Made by a program: the position numbers and the translations under genes
The notes under the pieces: model-generated
What the model was told of the DNA's origin: nothing
What the model saw: the letters and a program-made list of their open reading frames with translations, nothing else
Database searches by the model: none
Shown here: positions 3,718 to 7,316 of the stretch, one piece after another
Layout: every line of letters begins with the position of its first letter
Numbering within the stretch: position 1 is the first letter of the stretch
From: a virus
Length of the DNA: 30,335 nucleotides
Direction: 5' to 3' (one strand)
IMG/VR virus record: IMGVR_UViG_3300030382_000340
Location: 1-30,335 of that record

Positions 3718-3919
3718 ACCGTCACGCCCTCGTAAGGCAAAGCGGGCACCCGTAAAAAAAGTCCAACCACCCGAAGAGTCTACTAATAAGTATGCTCCAA
3801 AGATGAAGGTTGGCAAACCAACTATTAAAGCACCAGGTACTAAAGTGGTTACAACAGTTGGTCTTGGAAATTTACAAGTAGAAACAATCAATGGCAGAAG
3901 CACAGACACTAACGTATGA
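3704..3919 (+). CDS. Small basic protein between portal and scaffold
   Basis: A 71-residue Lys, Arg and Pro-rich protein (begins VKPSRPRKAKRAPVKKVQPP after the first two residues). It starts at GTG 3704. The start is supported by GCGGAGGA at 3691-3698, the best Shine-Dalgarno in this part, with about six bases of spacing. It overlaps the portal end by 14 bases and the scaffold start by 29 bases, so it is embedded in the head operon. It has no membrane segment or recognised domain. Its charge would suit nucleic-acid or acidic-protein contact, for example with the very acidic scaffold, but that is speculation. Confidence 0.6.
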   Translation: MDQVKPSRPRKAKRAPVKKVQPPEESTNKYAPKMKVGKPTIKAPGTKVVTTVGLGNLQVETINGRSTDTNV

Positions 3920-4661
3920 TGCTAACGAACAGGCTGAGGGTGAACTCAGTACTGAAGAGAAAGAAGCTCTAGAAGTTGGCGAGAAGTTAGCTGAACAGCA
4001 GAATGAATTACTTGCTGGTAAGTTTAAAGATGCTGAAGAATTAGAAAAAGGTTACATAGAATTACAAAAGAAACTAGGTGACCCAAATAAAGAAACTGAA
4101 GAATCAGAAGTTAAAGAAGAAGTCAAAGAGGATACTAAAGAAGAAGTTGAAACCGCTTTCTTAGACACTCTTTGGGATGAAGCTAATGATGAGTTTACTA
4201 AAGAAACAATGGATAAACTCAACGGCATGGATCCTAAAGATGTAGCTCAAATGTATCTAGAGTATAGATCTAATCAACCAGGACAACAAGTTTTGAGTAC
4301 AGAGAATGTTACTCAATTGAAAGATGTTGTAGGTGGTGAAGAGCAGTATGGTCAGATGATGCAGTGGGCAAACAGCAACCTAACTGAAAAAGAAACTCAA
4401 ATGTATGATGCTGTTATGGAACAAGGTAATCCACTTGCCGCGTTCTTTGCAGTACAAGCTTTGAAATATAGATTTGATGATTCACAAGGAGTTGATGGTC
4501 AAATGTTAAGTGGTAAGACAGCTTCAAATAGTAAAGGTGATCAATTCAGAAGTCAAGCTGAAGTGGTCCGAGCTATGGCTGACCCTAAATATGATAACGA
4601 CCCTGCTTATCGTCAGGATATTTACGATAAACTTGAACGATCTAAAAACTTGCAATTCTAA
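3891..4661 (+). CDS. Capsid assembly scaffolding protein (T7 gp9-like)
   Basis: A 256-residue strongly acidic, helical protein (T7 gp9 is 307). Scaffolds fill the procapsid, guide coat-protein assembly and leave before DNA packaging. It shows the family layout: an N-terminal acidic stretch with FKDAEELEKGYIELQKKLG near residue 45, a Glu and Lys-rich linker around 65-85, then a C-terminal helical region (EEQYGQMMQWANSNL, NPLAAFFAVQALKYRF) ending in a mixed-charge tail. It directly follows the portal block, as expected. Unusually, about 1.6 kb of other genes separates it from the capsid gene instead of a short gap. Confidence 0.9.
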   Translation: MAEAQTLTYDANEQAEGELSTEEKEALEVGEKLAEQQNELLAGKFKDAEELEKGYIELQKKLGDPNKETEESEVKEEVKEDTKEEVETAFLDTLWDEANDEFTKETMDKLNGMDPKDVAQMYLEYRSNQPGQQVLSTENVTQLKDVVGGEEQYGQMMQWANSNLTEKETQMYDAVMEQGNPLAAFFAVQALKYRFDDSQGVDGQMLSGKTASNSKGDQFRSQAEVVRAMADPKYDNDPAYRQDIYDKLERSKNLQF

Positions 4662-4754: not shown

Positions 4755-4952
4755 ATGGGAATGGCTTACAATCCTAGAGACGCTTCTAGGGCAAATGACT
4801 TTCAAATAGAATATGCTGTTGGTACCACAGGTAATCGTTGGTTCATACCATATAACGATAACGACAGCATGGCAGATCAGCTAGCTCAATGTAAAAAACT
4901 AGTTGGTCAAACTACTGATGGCACCGATTGCGGAGTAGAATCAGTAGTATAA
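4755..4952 (+). CDS. Small hypothetical protein
   Basis: A 65-residue protein starting at ATG 4755, with an AGGA seven bases upstream (4744-4747); ATG 4761 is an alternative start. It contains NRWFIPYNDNDSMADQLAQCKKLVGQTTDGTDCGVESVV, with two cysteines and no signal peptide or membrane segment. I do not recognise the family. It lies between the scaffold and the riboswitch cassette, and its stop codon overlaps a TATAAT element that may start the next transcript. Confidence 0.6.
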   Translation: MGMAYNPRDASRANDFQIEYAVGTTGNRWFIPYNDNDSMADQLAQCKKLVGQTTDGTDCGVESVV

Positions 4953-4953
4953 T
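4948..4953 (+). promoter_or_regulatory. Candidate host-type -10 promoter element
   Basis: A perfect TATAAT overlaps the stop codon of the preceding small gene. No good -35 hexamer lies 16-18 bases upstream; TTGCGG at 4928-4933 is too close. Many picocyanobacterial promoters have a clear -10 and weak -35, and transcription from about 4960 would put the riboswitch-like RNA some 40 bases into the leader. Such a hexamer can occur by chance in AT-rich DNA. Confidence 0.35.
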
Positions 4954-5002
4954 ATAAGTGGCGGCTCGCTTGTCGAAGCAGTAGAAGCCAACTGGGTCCG
5001 CG

Positions 5003-5067
5003 TCCGTTCACCTTCTTTTGAAGGCGCATGAAAACAACTCATGGAACGGGGGGTTGTTACTAAGGAG
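5003..5067 (+). promoter_or_regulatory. Downstream-peptide / glutamine-II riboswitch
   Basis: The sequence folds as an H-type pseudoknot with these elements. P1 is CCGTTC (5004-5009) with GAACGG (5044-5049). Inside it are hairpin CCTTC-TTTT-GAAGG (5011-5024) and hairpin CATGA / TCATG (5027-5031 with 5039-5043). The loop AACAAC (5033-5038) is complementary to GTTGTT (5053-5058). The Shine-Dalgarno AAGGAG (5062-5067) follows four bases after the pseudoknot strand, and a tiny ORF starts at 5074. Motifs such as CGTTCACC...GAAGGCGCA and a short peptide downstream match what I recall of the cyanobacterial and cyanophage downstream-peptide RNA, later shown to bind L-glutamine. Ligand binding would be expected to stabilise the pseudoknot and block ribosome access. 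A covariance-model search was not run. Confidence 0.8.
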
Positions 5068-5073
5068 AAGACT

Positions 5074-5124
5074 ATGAAAGTCCAACTAAAGTATCGCGGT
5101 ATCCCTTATACCAAAACTATTTAA
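5074..5124 (+). CDS. Riboswitch-controlled 16-residue peptide (MKxxYRG type)
   Basis: A 17-codon frame encoding MKVQLKYRGIPYTKTI, starting six bases after the strong AAGGAG (5062-5067). Short peptides of this kind directly follow the downstream-peptide RNA in marine cyanobacteria and their phages. The LKYRGIPY core resembles the N-terminal KLxYRGxxY signature of the cyanobacterial DUF4278 family, here without the rest of that domain. It ends nine bases before the start of the secreted protein. It may be a functional micropeptide or a leader whose translation couples to the next gene. Confidence 0.7.
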   Translation: MKVQLKYRGIPYTKTI

Positions 5125-5133
5125 ACTTTAACA

Positions 5134-5502
5134 ATGAAAACAATTGCACTTGCCGTCCTGGCATCCACCGCACTGGCGGCACCTGCAACAGCTGGTATCT
5201 ACGCCAACGTAGAAAACAATGCTGCACGTGTCGGCTCGGAATATATCGGAGCTGTTACAGATCTACACGTAGGTTATGAAGGTGGCGGAGAAACTGTTTC
5301 TTACTACATTCAAGGAGGCCCAGCTGTGGTTTCTGAACAAGGTGAAGAGTCAGACTGGCGTCTTTCAGGTAAAGTAGGAGCTAGCGTACAAGCTAGTGAG
5401 AATGCTTCTGGTTATGTAGAACTATCTCTCCTTACTGCTGATGAAGATACAGATGATGACAACTCTTGGGGAACCAAAATCGGAGTTAAGTATAACTTCT
5501 GA
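5134..5502 (+). CDS. Secreted beta-rich, outer-membrane-like protein
   Basis: A 122-residue protein with a clear Sec signal peptide: a Lys at position 2, a hydrophobic Ala and Leu core and PATA-G cleavage near residue 20. The ~102-residue mature part alternates polar and hydrophobic residues in about six short strands (for example VSYYIQGGPAVV and GYVELSLLTAD) and ends in GTKIGVKYNF, a C-terminal phenylalanine typical of outer-membrane barrels. It is small for an eight-stranded barrel, so it may oligomerise or be periplasmic. Codons near the start (GCCGTCCTGGCATCC) are more GC-rich than in neighbours. It follows the riboswitch peptide by nine bases. A role in altering the host envelope during infection is inferred. 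I recall similar proteins in cyanophages, but without known function. Confidence 0.75.
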   Translation: MKTIALAVLASTALAAPATAGIYANVENNAARVGSEYIGAVTDLHVGYEGGGETVSYYIQGGPAVVSEQGEESDWRLSGKVGASVQASENASGYVELSLLTADEDTDDDNSWGTKIGVKYNF

Positions 5503-5587: not shown

Positions 5588-6142
5588 ATGCCTTATTATT
5601 CAAACGCGGGCCAAGGTACTGTACGTTATAGTCCTTCAGGCTTTTATGATAGCGGTCTTTTACTAGACGCTAATAGTGCTAGTGTTACTAACAGCGTAAC
5701 TGTTGTAACAGCTGGTACTGACATACAGATACCTATTGGTAAGTATGATAGAGTTGTTGGTGAGTACTTTATTTGGTACGATACTGATGCAGATAACGAC
5801 TTCCGTTTCTGTCTTGATACTACTGATTCAAGTGGTACAGCATTTAACTCAAACATTAACTATGCTGTTCAAGCTGTAGTTGGTGGTGATGCTCTCAGCT
5901 CAGAAACTGCAACCTCTGCACCTTCTCTGTCTGCTAGTGCTACCGTGACCGACGGTAGCGGTACAGAACTACTACTAGTAGATGATGGTGATGAGGATCA
6001 CTTTGCTCGTATTGCATTCAAAGTAGAAAATCAAACTGCAACTTCAGGTAAGATAGATCTGCTATTCGCACAGGGTACAGCAACTGGATCAACGGCTACA
6101 TTAATTTATGCCGGTTCACATGTGATGTACAAGAAGTACTAG
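5588..6142 (+). CDS. Probable virion surface (head decoration or fibre) protein
   Basis: A 184-residue, Ser, Thr, Ala, Gly and Asp-rich protein with a strongly beta pattern and no signal peptide. The N-terminus MPYYSNAGQGTVRYSPSGFY and the C-terminus AGSHVMYKKY are the most distinctive parts. Such composition is usual for phage capsid decoration or fibre proteins, and I recall similar proteins next to marine phage capsid genes. It sits immediately before the capsid leader and gene. A virion role is therefore likely; the exact place in the particle is inference. It lacks the peptide motifs of immunoglobulin-fold Hoc proteins that I would recognise. Confidence 0.65.
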   Translation: MPYYSNAGQGTVRYSPSGFYDSGLLLDANSASVTNSVTVVTAGTDIQIPIGKYDRVVGEYFIWYDTDADNDFRFCLDTTDSSGTAFNSNINYAVQAVVGGDALSSETATSAPSLSASATVTDGSGTELLLVDDGDEDHFARIAFKVENQTATSGKIDLLFAQGTATGSTATLIYAGSHVMYKKY

Positions 6143-6149
6143 ATACTTC

Positions 6150-6232
6150 GGAAGGGAGGCACCTCAGAGTCGGACCTCTCTTTCATTGGCATCGGCCCGT
6201 ACGCGGATACCCTTTGCCGTCTAGACGGTGGG
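6150..6232 (+). promoter_or_regulatory. Structured leader before the capsid gene
   Basis: The 160-base gap before the capsid gene is more GC-rich in its first half and can fold. GGAAGGGAGG (6150-6159) pairs with CCTCTCTTTC (6175-6184) over ten pairs including two G-U. CCG-TACG-CGG forms a small hairpin at 6197-6206. CCC...CCGT (6210-6220) pairs with ACGG.GGG (6225-6232) around CTAG. The remaining 6240-6302 is AT-rich. It may stabilise or regulate capsid mRNA; no known RNA family is claimed. Confidence 0.4.
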
Positions 6233-6302
6233 AAAGACCACAACAAATTTTAAATTTTCAATCGATTGAGAGACTGTTAAATAATACAATTATTCTCGCA
6301 TA

Positions 6303-7316
6303 ATGGCTAATACACTTTCAACCAGTATTGGTACTATTAACAATACTAGCACTACTCCGTTAGATCCTAGTGTTGCTTATGATACCAAATACGCAACCTA
6401 TCTAAAGCTGTTCTCTGGTGAGCTTTTCAAAGCTTATGAGTCAGCAACGATAGCTAAAGGAACTGTACAGAACCGTCAACTAAAGAACGGTAAGAGTCTA
6501 CAGTTCATCTTCACTGGTCGTATGCAAGCGGCTTATCATACTCCAGGAGAACCCATTCTCGGATCGGGTGATCCTCCAGTAGCAGAGAAGACTATCGTCT
6601 GTGACGACCTTCTCATAAGCTCAGCTTTCGTATATGATCTTGATGAAACACTTGCTCACTACTCCCTGAGAAGTGAGATCTCTAAGAAGATCGGTCATGC
6701 TTTGGCCGAAGCTTACGACAAGAAGGTATTCCGTACCGTCGCACTAGCAGCTCGTGAAGCACATCCAATCACTGCATCACCAGGCCCAGAGCCAGGTGGT
6801 TCAATCATTAAGATTGGTGCTAACAACGAGTATGATGCTCAGCGTTTGGTTGACGCTTTCTTTGAAGCAGCTTCAATTCTTGATGAAAAGAACCTACCTA
6901 AGACTGGACGTACTGCAGTACTCGCACCTCGCCAGTACTACGCTCTAGTATCTCAGGTTGATTCTAACATCCTTAACCGTGACTACGGTAACTCACAGGG
7001 TAACTTGAACTCTGGTGAAGGACTGGTATCTATTGCCGGTATCGACATCAAGCGTTCCAACAACCTACCTTTCCAAGCTGGTACAGTTAATGCACAAGCT
7101 GGTGAGAACAACGATTACTCTGGTGCATTCGCAGACCATGCAGGTCTAATCTACCAGAAGGACGCAGCTGGTGTCGTGGAAGCCATCGGCCCACAAGTAC
7201 AGACAACTGGAGCTGACGTTAAAACAATGTATCAGGGTGACTTGATCGTTGGACGTTTGGCAATGGGTGTAGGTACACTTAACCCTGCTGCTGCTATTGA
7301 AATCCAAACTGCTTGA
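6303..7316 (+). CDS. Major capsid protein (T7 gp10-like)
   Basis: A 337-residue protein (T7 gp10A is 345) that forms the icosahedral shell with an HK97-type fold. Diagnostic stretches are YLKLFSGELFKAYESATIAKG and LKNGKSLQFIFTGRMQAAYHTPGEPI near the N-terminus, then IVCDDLLISSAFVYDLDETLAHYSLRSEISKKIG..LAEAYDKKVFRTV, and a C-terminal QGDLIVGRLAMGVGTLNPAAAIEI. The codons are richer in C-ending and G-rich choices than in most neighbours, as expected for the most highly expressed gene. A structured 160-base leader precedes it and a terminator lies downstream after two small genes. Confidence 0.96.
   Translation: MANTLSTSIGTINNTSTTPLDPSVAYDTKYATYLKLFSGELFKAYESATIAKGTVQNRQLKNGKSLQFIFTGRMQAAYHTPGEPILGSGDPPVAEKTIVCDDLLISSAFVYDLDETLAHYSLRSEISKKIGHALAEAYDKKVFRTVALAAREAHPITASPGPEPGGSIIKIGANNEYDAQRLVDAFFEAASILDEKNLPKTGRTAVLAPRQYYALVSQVDSNILNRDYGNSQGNLNSGEGLVSIAGIDIKRSNNLPFQAGTVNAQAGENNDYSGAFADHAGLIYQKDAAGVVEAIGPQVQTTGADVKTMYQGDLIVGRLAMGVGTLNPAAAIEIQTA

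Follow-up and report, generated by a model that had tools for sequence, protein, structure and literature searches.

A Glutamine-II riboswitch aptamer, followed by a conserved gene for a 16-amino-acid peptide, was found upstream of the major capsid gene of a T7-like cyanophage. The window, that is, the whole stretch of DNA that was analyzed, corresponds to a single IMG/VR virus record (30,335 bases), in which genes for the portal, scaffold, major capsid, and tail proteins of such a phage were recognized. Judged by capsid protein, its nearest sequenced isolate is Prochlorococcus phage NATL1A-7 (85%). Taken together, the results make it highly probable that a Glutamine-II riboswitch operates in the late operon of a T7-like cyanophage, where it would switch on a host-derived microprotein, act on the neighboring outer-membrane-like protein (OMP) gene by coupling, and serve a role in nitrogen metabolism. 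The computed part of this reading comprises the aptamer, its conserved place before the major capsid gene, and purifying selection on the peptide. The features of the region are as follows.

3891..4661, plus strand: head assembly (scaffold) protein (phrog_1052, 1.6e-49), upstream of the cassette
4948..4953, plus strand: TATAAT, overlapping the TAA stop of the open reading frame (ORF) at 4755-4952
5002..5058, plus strand: Glutamine-II aptamer (RF01704, 60.2 bits; own model R1, 71.8 bits; covariation in 40 relatives)
5005-5009 (CGTTC) with 5044-5048 (GAACG), plus strand: crossing pseudoknot helix, part of the aptamer
5011-5015 (CCTTC) with 5020-5024 (GAAGG), plus strand: aptamer hairpin
C5027 with G5049, plus strand: long-range pair of the aptamer
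5033-5040 with 5051-5058, plus strand: helix P2, containing AACAAC (5033-5038) and GTTGTT (5053-5058)
5062-5067, plus strand: Shine-Dalgarno motif AAGGAG, read from the sequence, shortly 3' of P2 and before the peptide ORF
5074..5124, plus strand: 16-amino-acid peptide MKVQLKYRGIPYTKTI and stop, a single YRG module related to DUF4278
5134..5502, plus strand: Phage_OMP, a small outer-membrane-like beta barrel (PF24653, 3.1e-38; phrog_417 'gp222', 1.3e-34)
5588..6142, plus strand: 184-amino-acid ORF between the OMP and capsid genes, with relatives in a few of the compared loci
6150-6184, plus strand: hairpin H1 in the capsid-gene leader, separate from the riboswitch
6186-6241, plus strand: structured RNA2 in the capsid-gene leader, separate from the riboswitch (own model R2, 74.3 bits, E 7e-15)
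6303..7316, plus strand: major capsid protein (phrog_267, 2.4e-78)

Aptamer fold and the peptide gene

The Rfam covariance model RF01704 (Glutamine-II) matched positions 5002 to 5058 of the plus strand with 60.2 bits, compared to a gathering score of 33, and an E value of 2.1e-12. No other Rfam family matched anywhere in the window. The original prediction of a Glutamine-II (Downstream-peptide) riboswitch was borne out by this search, by covariation, and by the identical placement of the RNA in isolates. Assignment to the glnA type (RF01739) was rejected, as its covariance model gave no match and RF01704 was the sole Rfam hit. The helices that had been predicted are real, but the pairing of AACAAC with GTTGTT, proposed as the pseudoknot, corresponds to P2 in the literature, and the crossing pseudoknot is formed by CGTTC and GAACG.

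The fold was evaluated in an alignment of 40 related phage RNAs, and its covariation score was compared with that of 500 shuffles. Standard pairs occupied 97% of the aptamer pair cells, and compensatory changes were present at 12 of the 19 pairs, so that the covariation in relatives agreed with the predicted class. The score was 0.42, compared to 0.13 in shuffles, none of which (0/500) scored as high. In the hairpin and in P2, the sequence varied while pairing was kept. The two pseudoknot strands, the CGCA linker, and CATGGAACGGGG were invariant among the 40 relatives; because the pseudoknot helix never varies, covariation is uninformative on this helix.

The ligand-contact positions could be assigned from PDB entry 6QN3, the crystal structure of which is described together with its glutamine contacts in PMC6698751. 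Nucleotides C1, G2, C39, G40, G18, and C19 of 6QN3 correspond to window positions 5005, 5006, 5047, 5048, 5026, and 5027, respectively, and the A33:G42 pair corresponds to 5041:5050. All of the glutamine-contact nucleotides are kept in the window and are invariant in the 40 relatives. The published Kd for L-glutamine is 0.19 mM (PMC6698751). By sequence and fold, the window RNA is a genuine member of the Glutamine-II riboswitch class, and it is predicted by class membership to sense glutamine here. It could be argued that phages have kept the fold while the ligand changed or ligand control was lost. The phage RNAs do have features in common that the crystallized host RNA lacks, among them CATGG before AACGGG and a GCATGA linker, after which P2 is different, and no expression platform was demonstrable; however, the ligand-contact positions are invariant in the 40 relatives, and we regard this explanation as very improbable. 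Just 5' of the riboswitch, at 4960-4989, the window contains the hairpin-forming sequence GGCGGCTCGCTTGTCGAAGCAGTAGAAGCC, which is shared by no more than its closest relatives (L106, L113, and L127), with an altered form in L114.

The small ORF that had been predicted after a strong Shine-Dalgarno motif was recovered as the 16-amino-acid ORF at 5074-5124, preceded by AAGGAG. Many phage relatives are without a clear Shine-Dalgarno motif before the peptide. A YRG peptide followed the RNA in 118 of 124 loci, the remaining six being cut by contig ends. The motif Y-R-G-x-x-Y was invariant in 156 phage loci while codons varied, and pN/pS was approximately 0.11 in close pairs, as determined by a simple count rather than a full model. 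The peptide is protein coding and under purifying selection.

Peptides of the T7-like phages fall into two length classes, one of 13 to 20 amino acids and the other of about 33 to 40 amino acids with an added N-terminal part. In comparison with DUF4278 (PF14105), one 35-amino-acid phage homologue scored 29.9 bits (profile 39-57), compared to a cutoff of 25.3 bits, other T7-type peptides scored 15.5 to 17.3 bits, under the cutoff, and the window peptide, extended by four appended alanines, gave no match at this gathering score. In IF17, the glutamine synthetase inactivating factor, DUF4278 forms the N-terminal part, which is reported to be dispensable for inhibition and important for stability (PMC6316151). 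Since it is dispensable for inhibition by IF17, a function of the peptide as a direct glutamine synthetase inhibitor is possible but not favored.

Placement and distribution in cyanophages

The cassette had been placed in the capsid operon of a cyanobacterial virus, between the scaffold and capsid genes. The former holds, as the virus is a T7-like cyanophage and the placement is identical in isolates. The position is likewise right, with the addition of two more genes, Phage_OMP and the ORF at 5588-6142, before the capsid gene of the window. The TATAAT motif at 4948-4953, which had been included as a cassette element, is present. It overlaps a stop codon, and only 11 of 175 loci have a TATAAT no more than 70 nt 5' of the RNA; the motif therefore does not support a dedicated promoter and is probably not a functional one.

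A pattern scan of IMG/VR for the RNA yielded at least 120 contigs. Among the matches listed, the capsid gene was downstream and on the same strand as the RNA in 92 of 92 capsid-holding contigs, with a median RNA-to-capsid-gene distance of 335 nt, and scaffold or portal was upstream of the RNA in all 57 contigs with either gene. A looser pattern scan returned mostly glnA-type RNAs in T4-like contigs and chance matches, with a few variant Glutamine-II copies, and a scan of genome contigs gave mostly chance matches outside Prochlorococcus and Synechococcus.

Because the IMG/VR scan sample was chosen by the RNA itself, two samples chosen otherwise were evaluated. The first consisted of 20 cyanopodovirus isolates, 17 of which were picked by capsid gene only; NATL1A-7, P-SSP10, and P-SSP6 were first found via similarity to the cassette region. 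RF01704 scored above the cutoff in 12 of the 20 isolates (P-SSP7, P-SSP2, P-GSP1, SS120-1, S-TIP28, S-TIP37, S-RIP2, S-CBP1, S-CBP4, NATL1A-7, P-SSP10, and P-SSP6), whereas no RNA was found in seven (DSL-LC07, S-SRP01, S-CBP42, S-CBP2, Syn5, P60, and S-B28). With at least 120 IMG/VR contigs and 12 of 20 isolates, glutamine riboswitches are not rare in marine cyanophages, contrary to the rarity in phages that had been claimed. Two variants were observed. Synechococcus phage S-SBP1 (L342:2585-2641; own model, 37 bits) has kept P2 and the YRG peptide and has lost the CGTTC pseudoknot strand, and its sequence identifies this copy as a natural case of aptamer loss. In S-CBP1 (L326:2501-2586) and in contig L032, the P1 hairpin is greatly enlarged and the rest of the riboswitch is intact.

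The second sample comprised the 80 IMG/VR loci whose capsid proteins were closest to that of the window, and the RNA was scored where the DNA upstream extended over at least 1,450 nt. Sampled by the capsid gene alone, loci L126 to L178 contained the RNA in 27 of 27 cases with this length of upstream DNA. Loci L179 to L205 contained it in only 1 of the 21 contigs with enough upstream DNA, the other 20 being without it. In a tree of capsid proteins, L200 of the latter set groups with DSL-LC07 and S-SRP01, which are lake and reservoir isolates, and the absence from L179-L205 possibly reflects a split between salt and fresh water or between nitrogen regimes. The same tree places the RNA on both deep branches of the cyanopodoviruses, and it is present in L295. 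Its occurrence on both branches fits an old presence with several losses; spread by transfer between phages is a possible alternative.

The operon slot of the cassette also holds other accessory genes, e.g., psbA and hli. This raises the question of whether riboswitch and peptide came from the host and persist at a tolerated operon site as a passive passenger, similar to a moron insert. Such a passenger would agree with these other genes and with the lack of the cassette in several isolates and in most of one clade. However, both deep branches of the capsid tree include phages with the cassette, its stems covary, and its peptide is under strong purifying selection, and we consider a passive passenger very improbable.

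Proposed control of the peptide and capsid region

According to the reading that we prefer, a glutamine-responsive switch in the late operon, high host glutamine, as a measure of nitrogen status, would stabilize the pseudoknot fold, and the stabilized fold would turn on translation of the single-module DUF4278-like microprotein. In phages with the layout of the window, the beta-barrel gene would rise with the peptide by termination-reinitiation. The switch and the shortened DUF4278 gene were most likely acquired from a picocyanobacterial host, and late in infection the phage probably uses the cassette to sense or modify the nitrogen metabolism of the host. Type 2 glutamine riboswitches in picocyanobacteria are reported to be DUF4278-associated ON switches, and ON behavior was reported for a Prochlorococcus relative (PMC6316151).

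The distance from the end of P2 to the start codon of the peptide is 15 nt in the window and nearly equal in most relatives. Sequestration of the Shine-Dalgarno motif was considered as the expression platform and was not supported. Comparing free and aptamer-folded states of 128 sequences in a Boltzmann model, accessibility of the ribosome site did not change systematically (mean, +0.01; 18 up and 11 down).

The Phage_OMP gene starts 9 nt after the stop of the peptide in the window. In the 21 loci of this type, including the window, the median gap is 6 nt, and in one locus stop and start overlap as TAATG. A Shine-Dalgarno-like motif was found before the OMP start in none of these 21 loci, compared to 17 of 21 before the peptide. 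With its start close to the peptide stop and no ribosome-binding site of its own, control of the OMP gene by translational coupling is plausible. It should be noted that only 7 of 24 window genes are preceded by a Shine-Dalgarno-like motif and 17 are without, and because its absence is this common, support for coupling is moderate and suggestive only. Most of the remaining contigs have 150 to 300 nt between the peptide and the capsid gene that comes next.

The leader of the capsid gene contains, within its final 150 nt, a second structured RNA, RNA2 (6186-6241), for which no family exists in Rfam 15. It was analyzed with a gap-free alignment subset and a covariance model, and a cutoff of E 0.01 was applied. 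At this cutoff RNA2 was detected in 56 of 66 loci, in phages both with and without the riboswitch. In the alignment fitted to this model, 98.5% of the cells are standard pairs, 11 of the 14 pairs show compensatory changes, and none of 500 shuffles scored as high. An independent parse by regular expression found the two inner hairpin pairs formed in 91 of 91 sequences, with four or five pair types each; 50 loci did not fit the expression. Four loci have a complete tRNA directly 5' of RNA2, and elsewhere this slot is taken by a T-arm-like hairpin or by another hairpin, with the loop CACCTCAGAGTCGGA in some phages. The last base of each of these tRNA genes (Gly, L002:4741-4811; Cys, L180:2786-2856; Trp, L188:173-245; and Trp, L192:1878-1950) coincides with the first base of RNA2 or lies just before it. 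RNA2 represents a candidate new RNA family that is located immediately 5' of the major capsid gene in T7-like cyanophages, and its junction with tRNAs suggests processing of the capsid mRNA similar to tRNA punctuation.

A structured leader between peptide and capsid gene also bears on what the riboswitch controls. Its main role may be to adjust expression of the long capsid operon that lies 3' of it, either via mRNA stability or via coupling, in which case the peptide would be a mere leader ORF that protects or opens the message. The place of the cassette is fixed relative to the capsid gene and not to any metabolic gene, and in most contigs the peptide and a leader of about 150 to 300 nt directly precede the capsid gene, as expected under such tuning. 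On the other hand, the peptide shows the evolution of a protein and keeps YRGxxY invariant, which a mere leader would not need, two genes separate peptide and capsid gene in the window layout, and no terminator or antiterminator was seen. We judge capsid-operon tuning to be a possible explanation, although not a likely one. Equally tentative is a broader proposal, in which the cassette would be a core, probably ancestral sensor of host nitrogen in the structural operon of T7-like cyanophages. It would gate a one-module DUF4278-like microprotein acting on host nitrogen control (e.g., glutamine synthetase or PII partners) and tune capsid production to nitrogen, and T4-like phages would do similarly via another aptamer and a two-module protein.

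Significance and comparison with known systems

In much of the surface ocean nitrogen is limiting, and phage particles are rich in it. In most of the T7-like cyanophages examined, the model phage P-SSP7 among them, a glutamine sensor fixed upstream of the capsid gene would directly link host nitrogen status to virus production, and the conserved 16-amino-acid peptide may be among the smallest auxiliary metabolic genes of phages. Both the RNA and the peptide are missing from the annotations of the isolates examined. We found no open-access paper on the Glutamine-II RNA or the peptide in podoviruses; Klahn 2018 and Ames and Breaker 2011 lay outside this search. What is new, and apparently undescribed, is that the cassette has a conserved place upstream of the capsid gene in most of the T7-like marine cyanophages examined.

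The window cassette shares with the RF01704 class its sequence, fold, ligand-contact nucleotides, and small downstream YRG ORF. Most of the host Prochlorococcus Glutamine-II RNAs found precede DUF4278-like proteins of 33 to 58 amino acids with two or three YRG-type modules, whereas the phage copy is located in a capsid operon and precedes a single-module peptide (13 to 20 or about 33 to 40 amino acids). A YRG-type motif and an upstream glutamine riboswitch are also common to the window peptide and to DUF4278 (PF14105) and IF17. However, the window peptide, at 16 amino acids, is under Pfam detection, and the glutamine synthetase-inhibiting part of IF17 is not DUF4278 (PMC6316151). Methylophage Melnitz likewise represents a marine phage with a glutamine aptamer; its riboswitch is of the glnA type, lies next to tmRNA in a T4-like phage of OM43 bacteria, and has a different target (PMC9004378).

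T4-like cyanophages are known to carry Glutamine-I (glnA) riboswitches (PMC9964418). Similarly to the window cassette, the glnA RNAs (type 1, RF01739) of these phages, e.g., S-CREM1, combine glutamine sensing with a small YRG/DUF4278-like protein. They differ in aptamer class, in that the proteins have two YRG modules, and in their location, which is amid genes for phoH, thymidylate synthase, and ribonucleotide reductase and not in front of a capsid gene. In our T4-like contigs (L206-L325, e.g., L214, L272, and L285), glnA-type riboswitches, some of them in tandem, were observed in the vicinity of phoH, thymidylate synthase, and manA RNAs, where they precede two-YRG-module proteins of 40 to 65 amino acids. 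The two large groups of cyanophages thus use different glutamine aptamers with related microproteins.
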